Shown here: positions 37,978 through 61,117 of the stretch, one piece after another
How the letters are laid out: every line of letters starts with the position of its first letter
Position numbering within the stretch: position 1 is the stretch's first letter
From: Aneurinibacillus uraniidurans
Lineage (GTDB): Bacteria > Bacillota > Bacilli > Aneurinibacillales > Aneurinibacillaceae
Assembly (NCBI RefSeq): GCF_028471905.1
Contig: NZ_CP116902.1
Coordinates: forward strand, 1,214,501-1,278,500
Direction: 5' to 3'
Length of the DNA: 64,000 nt
The notes under the pieces: model-generated
Told to the model about the DNA's origin: nothing
The model's input: only the letters and a program-made list of their open reading frames with translations
The model's database searches: none
Made by a program: the position numbers and the translations under genes

Positions 37978-38839
<862 letters not shown>

Positions 38840-48529: not shown

Positions 48530-49167
48530 TGGGACAAACGGAACTGGCAAAACAAATTGCAGGCAAACTGCTCGACATTGATGCGGTATCTCTCCGCCCG
48601 GATGAGCCATTCACATGGACATCTGGCATTAAAAGCCCAATCTACTGTGATAATCGGATGACAATGTCATTCCCAGAGGTGCGCCGTCTGATCTATAAAG
48701 GCTTCGCACAAAAAATTCGGGAGCAGTATCCAGAAGCTCAGGTGATCGCGGGAACTGCGACAGCGGGCATTCCGCATGCGGCATGGGTGTCGGAAGAACT
48801 TGGCCTTCCAATGACGTATGTACGCTCGAAGCCGAAAGGACACGGCAAAGGCAACCAAATCGAAGGCAAGCTTGATGCAGGCGCAAAAGTGATCGTAATC
48901 GAAGATTTGATTTCGACAGGCGGCAGCTCGATTGAAGCGGCGCAAGCGATTAAAGAAGCGGGTGGAGAAGTGCTAGCTGTGCTTGCCATCTTCTCGTATC
49001 AGTTCCCGAAAGCGGAAGCGGCGTTTGCGGAAGCAGGCTTCGCTTTTGATACACTGAGCAACTATACAGCTCTGCTGGAAGTGGCGCAGGAAAAAGGAAC
49101 GATTCGGGCAGACCAGCTCGATGCACTTGCTTCATGGCGGCAGAATCCGGCTGAATGGCAAGCGTAA
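48529..49167 (+). CDS. pyrE: Orotate phosphoribosyltransferase
   Basis: A 212-residue PRTase. [12 protein letters not shown] near the N-terminus binds orotate, [17 protein letters not shown] is the flexible catalytic loop and [14 protein letters not shown] the PRPP loop. It makes OMP from orotate. It is the last gene of the pyr operon and starts in the pyrF stop codon. The message then runs through the palindromic repeat at 49178 before the terminator at 49491. Confidence 0.96.
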
Positions 49168-49177
49168 GGCATTATCG

Positions 49178-49462
49178 GAAGTTTATTTGAGGAGATAGAG
49201 GTCAGCAAAGTTGGGGGCGGAGAGCGAAAAAGAGAGAAGTGCGTCGCGGTTTTATGCGTGGCAGGGAAGAGGGGGCTGTCCGCTCCAGGAGACTGGTAGA
49301 CTCGCCCACAAAGCGCTTCCGAAGCATTGCTGAAGGAGCAGATTGCGGGCAAAGGCCCGTCTGCCAGTCTCCTTCCGCTGGGTACGCGCATAAAAAAGCT
49401 CCTTACTTTCTCTTTTCTTCGCTTCCGACATACTTTGCTGATTATCTGTCAAACAAACTTTG
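49178..49462 (+). repeat. Palindromic dispersed repeat, copy 1 (about 285 bp)
   Basis: The whole stretch folds on itself. Outer arms GAAGTTTATTTG (49178) and the complement of CAAACAAACTT (end) pair, and inner arms GTCAGCAAAGT, GCGAA/TTCGC, AAAGAGA and TTTTATGCG continue the pairing. A core at about 49274-49393 is closely similar to copy 2 (60927-61049), including CCGCTCCAG, AAAGCGCTT, the apical GAAGGAG (49332-49338), TTGCGGGCAAAGGC and TTCCGCTGGGTA. It lies 10 bases after pyrE and ahead of that operon's terminator, so it would be in the 3' end of the pyr message. No gene, transposase or clear target duplication was found. The gap 49168-49658 holds only this, the terminator and an AT-rich spacer. 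Confidence 0.85.
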
Positions 49463-49490
49463 ACTATTGTAGTTATATATGTAAATGCGT

Positions 49491-49544
49491 AAAAGAGATT
49501 GTCTCAAAAGCTGTAATACAGCGACTGAGGCAGTCTCTTTTTTC
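49491..49544 (+). terminator. Terminator of the pyr operon
   Basis: AGAGATTGTCTCA pairs with TGAGGCAGTCTCT using two G-U steps, with an inner GCTG/CAGC hairpin, then TTTTTTC. Similar in stem and loop to the ftsZ terminator. Confidence 0.9.
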
Positions 49545-49658: not shown

Positions 49659-49820
49659 ATGAGTGTACCGGAATTCGGTCTGAAGCGGAAATACACGTAT
49701 CAGGATTATCTCAGGTGGTCGGATGATGAACGATGGGAACTGATTGACGGTGTACCATACGCAATAAGTCTCGCACCTTTTGATGTTTGCTCAATTAAAA
49801 TTTATAGTAAGAGGGTATAA
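49659..49820 (+). pseudogene. Uma2-family (DUF820) endonuclease remnant, N-terminal fragment
   Basis: A 53-codon frame behind AGAGGTGAATGGT. Its first 40 residues read YTYQDYLRWSDDERWELIDGVPYA, whose ends match the Uma2 family start (YTYEDYL...ERWELIDGVPY). After LAP the family sequence stops and 13 unrelated residues lead to TAA. Intact Uma2 proteins are about 180-190 residues with a PD-(D/E)XK core, so the catalytic part is missing. Two bases after the stop, the next gene starts. A deletion or insertion joined the fragment to foreign DNA at about 49780 (inference). Confidence 0.75.
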
Positions 49821-49822
49821 AA

Positions 49823-60830: not shown

Positions 60831-61117
60831 GAAAGCTTACTTGAGAAGTGGGAGCACGAACTGGCCAGTGGGGGAGATGGGAAGAGAAAAAACACGTCAC
60901 TTTGTTGCGCACGGCATGGAAGTGCAGGCTGGCCGCTCCAGAAGTCTGGCGGACTGGCCCGCAAAGCGCTTTCGTAGCATAACCTGAAGGAGTAGGTTGC
61001 GGGCAAAGGCACGTCCGCCTGACGTCTTCCGCTGGGTAGGTGCGCAAAGGCGTTCCGGTGTTTTCTCTCTTCCCATCTCCCACGGCAGTTTGGTGGTCCA
61101 CGTTCAATTATGCTTTT
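60831..61117 (+). repeat. Palindromic dispersed repeat, copy 2 (about 287 bp)
   Basis: Same orientation and architecture as copy 1. The arms GAGATGGGAAGAGA and TCTCTTCCCATCTC match over 14 bases within a longer imperfect pairing (about 60868-60912 with 61038-61082), and outer arms AAGCTTACTTGA and TCAATTATGCTT extend it. The core (about 60927-61049) carries CCGCTCCAGAAG, CCCGCAAAGCGCTT, AACCTGAAGGAGTAGGTT at the apex, and GGCACGTCCGCCTGACGTCTTCCG. Arms differ almost completely from copy 1 yet stay self-complementary. It fills the 396-base gap between rpoZ and coaBC, apart from the terminator; long frames on the minus strand through it are by-products. Confidence 0.85.

Follow-up and report, generated by a model that had tools for sequence, protein, structure and literature searches.

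The two long hairpins in the 64,000-nucleotide stretch of the Aneurinibacillus uraniidurans genome analysed here (the window) are two of about a hundred copies of a dispersed, previously undescribed family of folded RNAs. The explanation that we favour, and regard as probable on balance, is a structured RNA of the mobile-repeat type, made from the minus strand and recognised by a putative trans-acting protein.

Two hairpins with a conserved core

An earlier note on this DNA had described a sequence folding back on itself at positions 49178-49462 and a second copy in the same orientation at 60831-61117. The coordinates of the first hairpin are right: the interval 49160-49480 folds with -131.3 kcal/mol (z -6.3), a stability equalled by none of 100 shuffled sequences. 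The second copy is real as well, and covariance model R2 places both hairpins on the minus strand, with 150.2 bits over the conserved core of copy 1 (49235-49403) and 146.3 bits over that of copy 2 (60888-61057). The two cores are closely similar (81% by blastn). The outer arms were said to pair within each copy while sharing almost no sequence; the pairing holds, and the lack of shared sequence does not, since the arms of 19 subtypes conform to a shared purine-rich pattern, approximately AAAGTGTGGTGG.GGG.GGAG..GGAGAAG.GAG, in which both sides changed together. Each element consists of a long outer stem, relatively free in sequence while remaining paired, that encloses a core comprising stems P1a, P2 and P3, an apical loop and purine-rich (GA-rich) internal loops. 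Aligned element length is near-constant, mostly 243-252 bases (about 245 bp when the outermost arms are not counted), and a motif, AGCGGA, is repeated on the RNA strand.

Copy 1 starts 12 bases past the pyrE stop codon and is followed on the pyrE (plus) strand by a terminator-like hairpin (49491-49543), which was read from the sequence and seen in part in a scan; hairpins of this type are common where paired copies end on the outside. Copy 2 lies between a small open reading frame that is presumably rpoZ and what we take to be a coaBC-like gene, both named from their protein sequences. Elsewhere in the window, a PyrR binding site at the start of the pyr operon region (38089-38236, plus strand, 64 bits) is as expected near pyrE, and a short reading frame starting from MSVPEFGLKRKYTYQDY (about 49659-49822) resembles a truncated relative of a longer frame in the sister species, presumably Uma2/DUF820-like.

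Size and spread of the family

Judged by pyrE, the five nearest named relatives of the window's genome (G000) all belong to Aneurinibacillus, in agreement with its placement in that genus. A 141-base query from the core has 43 matches in this genome. With covariance model R1 there are 94 matching sites here and at least 150 in the sister species (G005), six in G006 and four in G003, two other members of the genus, and none in three further members. The 75 near-full copies retained from 88 hits fall into 19 subtypes, of which A has 31 copies, B has 23 and 17 are smaller (one from G006); a set of 91 further copies was likewise freed of weak or truncated hits. Of the 75 copies, 34 are included in alignments A1, A2 and A3, which cover 18 of the 19 subtypes and lack subtype 16 (L020).

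In a survey of the class with the minus-strand model R2 (E <=1e-5), 41 of the 398 genomes sampled, from 17 of 145 genera, contained relatives; seven candidates were scored per genome, and several genomes were still multi-copy. In a phylum-wide draw of 398 genomes, model R3 matched the window's own genome alone. The family was thus not detected outside its class, with the stricter filters and different model of the phylum-wide draw. An exact-pattern scan over contigs of 84,980 species gave no match; the pattern was too strict, since R2 found relatives elsewhere. A phage or plasmid origin was considered and rejected, as blastn gave no match and the exact pattern occurred on no viral contig. L216, L218, L220, L222 (G008), L205 (G003) and L214 and L215 (G007) share another apical loop, which in the orientation first read is approximately AACATCTGGGTA..TC.A.GA.GGAGACA; this suggests that lineages outside the two main genomes have a loop of their own.

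The element downstream of pyrE is present in the sister species and absent in five other genus members searched, and copies in general adjoin many unrelated genes; a role specific to pyrE was rejected on these grounds. In the sister species, the pyrE copy is followed by a second, tandem and internally deleted copy (L146 2528-2707).

Covariation of the paired positions

Paired positions in the alignments change together. Of 37 predicted pairs, 27 remain paired although both sides have changed, as judged from 34 sequences that represent 18 of the 19 subtypes. Within a 28-pair core structure, 95.6% of cells pair (86.0% when shuffled) and 20 of the 28 pairs show both-sided change (10.7 when shuffled); the covariation score of 0.351 compares with a shuffled value of 0.173, was reached in none of 500 shuffles and falls to at most 0.116 when the register is slid. 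More distant copies behave in the same way: 30 matches from other genera score 0.791 versus 0.210, with both-sided change at 30 of 34 pairs, and 43 matches from G003, G006, G007 and G008 score 0.496 versus 0.172, both alignments having been built to the model and leaning towards its structure. Covarying pairs in an alignment of many copies, which the earlier note had asked for, support its claim that the structure is under selection and exceed both shuffled and slid controls.

Both-sided changes also exceed the expectation of independence within subtypes (23 versus 6.1 in A; 27 versus 7.1 in B). Template switching, described as a palindrome-correction mechanism in the available text of PMC8794818, could help to explain this excess.

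The strand of the RNA

In the core stems P1a, P2 and P3 of 166 copies, read in the first orientation, A.C combinations outnumber G.U by 112 to 21 (59 versus 10 in the set of 75 copies and 53 versus 11 in the 91 further copies). One P2 column contributes 26 A.C and 7 G.U, leaving 86 versus 14; the cells are partly non-independent, and the bias extends over most columns of the core and reappears in the second set. As a control, the same script applied to the SRP RNAs of 30 relatives, on their own strand, counted 76 G.U and 17 A.C. Because an A.C on one strand is a G.U on the other, the selected RNA would be the reverse complement of the strand first read. Among relatives, G.U exceeds A.C on this RNA strand by 28 to 11 and by 51 to 18, in alignments fitted to that strand.

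Folding points the same way. For one alignment, the consensus fold reaches -43.34 kcal/mol on the minus strand (-43.45 for the tool's own minus-strand fold) versus -20.75 kcal/mol on the plus strand, and individual copies are more stable as the minus strand in 105 cases and as the plus strand in 60 of the 166. By our own reading of the consensus, the conserved internal loops GGAAC/GUGAC and GCGGAAGG/CCUGGAGC on the minus strand could form G.A pairs, while on the plus strand the same loops are pyrimidine mismatches. Core wobble asymmetry and consensus fold together indicate that the selected RNA is probably the minus strand: that of copy 1, a family member with a marked fold z, would run from 49462 to 49178, antisense to pyrE, and the same two lines of evidence assign copy 2 to the minus strand. 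The proposal that copy 1 works within the pyrE transcript is not supported by this assignment.

Several observations count against the favoured explanation. Over whole hairpins, G.U and A.C are about equally frequent (38 versus 37 with one copy per subtype; 127 versus 154 in all 75), and the outer arms lack any wobble asymmetry. A DNA element had at first been inferred from the whole-hairpin counts; the separate count of the core stems overturned that inference, which stands for the outer arms. In distant genera the consensus energies of the two strands are close. No promoter signal is enriched beside copies on either strand across the family; at copy 1, a promoter-like site (TTTACG-16-TACAAT, 49466-49493, minus strand) reads into the element on the RNA strand, and the scan found this one site against a shuffle mean of 1.1, no more than chance.

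Divergent pairs and neighbouring genes

Copies occur singly or in pairs about 93 bp apart, with the RNA strands facing away from each other. Neighbours within 250 bp are divergent in 67 of 68 cases, the remaining one being tandem. In a first set of 51 stretches, 28 of 29 pairs run plus-then-minus in the orientation first read, with a median gap of 94 bases; in a second set of 60 stretches, a few of which overlap the first, all 39 do so, with a median gap of 93 bases. A pair usually combines one A copy and one B copy. Divergent pairs recur in other genera, in three of five double-match stretches among 25 and in one of two among 41 (L221). Terminator-like hairpins, as read from the sequence, are frequent at both outer ends of pairs, with their T runs inward. 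These hairpins have similar loops and differing yet complementary stems (for example C1 741147-741784 and 2222348-2222987 of G000), and at one pair-end site the sister species instead has an unrelated simple terminator.

At ten single copies, two of them orthologues, a gene lies no more than 70 bp away on the 5' side (first-read orientation), and in all ten cases it reads toward the element, so that the RNA points at the 3' end of the gene. Exceptions to this rule occur at larger gene distances, and in other genera, with crude gene calls, orientation relative to neighbouring genes varies.

Constraint on individual copies

Ten orthologous copies were compared between the window's genome and its sister species, with sites classed as conserved when 90% or more of the other subtypes keep them and as variable when fewer than 50% do. 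Conserved sites differ at 29 of 596 positions (4.9%), variable sites at 71 of 320 (22%) and flanks at 217 of 1243 (17.5%); for reference, 33 of 211 third codon positions of pyrE differ between the two genomes. Each orthologous pair has about 60 conserved sites, of which 0 to 5 differ. This low divergence implies that individual copies are constrained in their core, and gene conversion among copies could contribute to its conservation. A purely selfish repeat would not be expected to have old copies under selection, and in this respect the constraint weighs against the favoured explanation. So does the comparison of the whole hairpin over 11 pairs, in which paired and unpaired sites changed alike (214 of 1600 versus 260 of 1825), implying that the outer stem is looser.

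The eleventh pair comes from an orthologous intergenic site (L011 1436-1692, L157 360-633) that was excluded from the ten-pair comparisons, since the copies found there differ between the two species and have opposite orientations. The flanks of this site align directly, as though a pair had been reduced to a single member in each species.

Mobility and partner genes

Of 14 loci, nine have both flanks in the sister species; the element is whole or partial at seven of these and missing at two, its place being taken by a simple terminator or by a remnant. The combination that the earlier note had held against a selected structure, many copies per genome with a fixed transposon end and target duplications, is seen in its first part (94 and at least 150 copies) and not in its second: no fixed transposon end, target duplication or clean empty site was seen at the nine flank-matched loci of the two species. 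In one divergent pair of the sister species the spacer holds a transposase-like insertion (L155 about 664-1531), which we take by eye to be IS1595-like; the orthologous pair in the window's genome is without it.

No partner gene turned up beside copies, with Y1_Tnp as the family searched for and crude gene calls for the copies in other genera; inspection by eye of five regions dense in copies revealed no transposase. The Y1 transposase genes of the two species (one in G000, two in G005) have no hairpin in the neighbourhoods fetched. A Y1/RAYT partner identifiable by adjacency was rejected, as no Y1 gene lies beside copies.

Comparison with known systems

The earlier note had recognised no known RNA family, and Rfam 15 likewise gives no match at gathering score over the element in the window, in 20 diverse loci or in 5 distant loci; a permissive Rfam search gave no credible match. 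HEARO and the omega RNAs of IscB-type elements are structured RNAs of similar size, present in many copies and carried by mobile DNA. The present family resembles them in structure, size and copy number; unlike them, it has no Rfam 15 match, and no nuclease gene was noticed beside copies. REP/BIME sequences with RAYT transposases are high-copy intergenic palindromes in opposite-orientation pairs. The family is alike in these properties and differs in its units of about 245 bp, compared with 20-40 bp for REP units as given in the consulted part of PMC3733652, and in having no Y1 transposase gene beside copies.

Closer in description is the mobile/repeat sequence candidate MRSC-65-2, which the accessible sections of PMC11109978 portray as one long covarying stem that is present dozens of times per genome in no consistent orientation to genes, has a conserved UYCCGG repeat and occurs in diverse phyla. 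Compared by description, not alignment, the family shares the long covarying stem, the many copies and the varying gene orientation. It differs in its AGCGGA repeat on the RNA strand, its several conserved internal loops and its having been seen in one class only, and by eye the UYCCGG repeat is absent from the 34-sequence consensus. By analogy, we propose that the family works like the candidates presented in that text (PMC11109978). The bcr1-bcr18 repeats of the Bacillus cereus group, as far as the text available from PMC3446304 goes, are many-copy and intergenic, several of them MITE-like, some with conserved RNA structure and about half transcribed. The family is like them in distribution, a likeness of description and not of sequence, and unlike them in that the bcr repeats are restricted, as described, to the B. 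cereus group (PMC3446304). The open-access literature in the parts available, PMC8632094 and PMC6429828 among it and subscription papers and supplementary tables aside, yielded no earlier description of the family.

Discussion

In the favoured explanation, the RNA would be made outward from the spacer side of a pair and its fold would be recognised by a protein acting in trans. Dispersal would be that of a non-autonomous repeat, with subtypes A and B mostly moving as one unit, and selection would maintain the copies.

A distinct, if not likely, possibility is that the copies are host-serving non-coding RNA genes that do not move, a large family, such as protein-binding or sponge RNAs, often arranged as divergent pairs and kept at many loci for dose. 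Purifying selection at orthologous copies, fixed divergent pairing and the sharing of most tested sites with the sister species (whole or partial at seven of nine) all speak for it; a copy number ranging from 0 to at least 150 within one genus, the amplification of two subtypes, the failure to find a promoter signal beside copies and the variable orientation to neighbouring genes in other genera speak against it. Much less probable is that copy 1 acts as an RNA within the pyrE transcript. Its position, 12 bases past the stop codon and ahead of a terminator-like hairpin, would suit such a role, which we nonetheless find barely credible given the opposite strand evidence, the many unrelated genes beside other copies and the absence of the element after pyrE in all genus members searched except the sister species.

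Two further alternatives make the RNA or its selection unnecessary. A hairpin or cruciform acting at the DNA level, like REP/BIME units and with the RNA irrelevant, would account for long near-perfect palindromes in inverted pairs at intergenic sites near gene ends and for outer arms free of wobble asymmetry. We consider it quite improbable, because the strand bias of the core stems is as strong as that of SRP RNA, the conserved internal loops, as read from the consensus, allow G.A pairs on the minus strand only, the minus-strand consensus fold is twice as strong and no Y1 transposase lies beside copies. Palindrome correction by template switching might alone have produced the covariation, with no selection on structure: the mechanism is on record (PMC8794818, as far as its available text goes), both-sided changes exceed independence in subtypes A and B, and G.U and A.C are equal over whole hairpins. 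This reading is very improbable, as non-complementary internal loops persist across subtypes, the core has a wobble bias and sites are constrained at orthologous copies.

We raise tentatively, as a rather unlikely possibility, that the family represents a new kind of RNA-dependent genetic element. Such elements would consist of divergent structured-RNA pairs that steer their own dispersal through their fold, with a host or partner protein providing reverse transcription or RNA guidance; they would be kept at 100 or more selected loci per genome and occur in several families of the bacterial class.

The working strand of a near-palindromic RNA can be told from the wobble asymmetry of its copies in the genome, for which SRP RNA serves as yardstick. 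Multi-copy structured repeats are usually dismissed as selfish debris; this family instead shows constraint on single copies, near-fixed divergent pairing and a core conserved across genera, properties that make the question of junk versus function directly testable for it.
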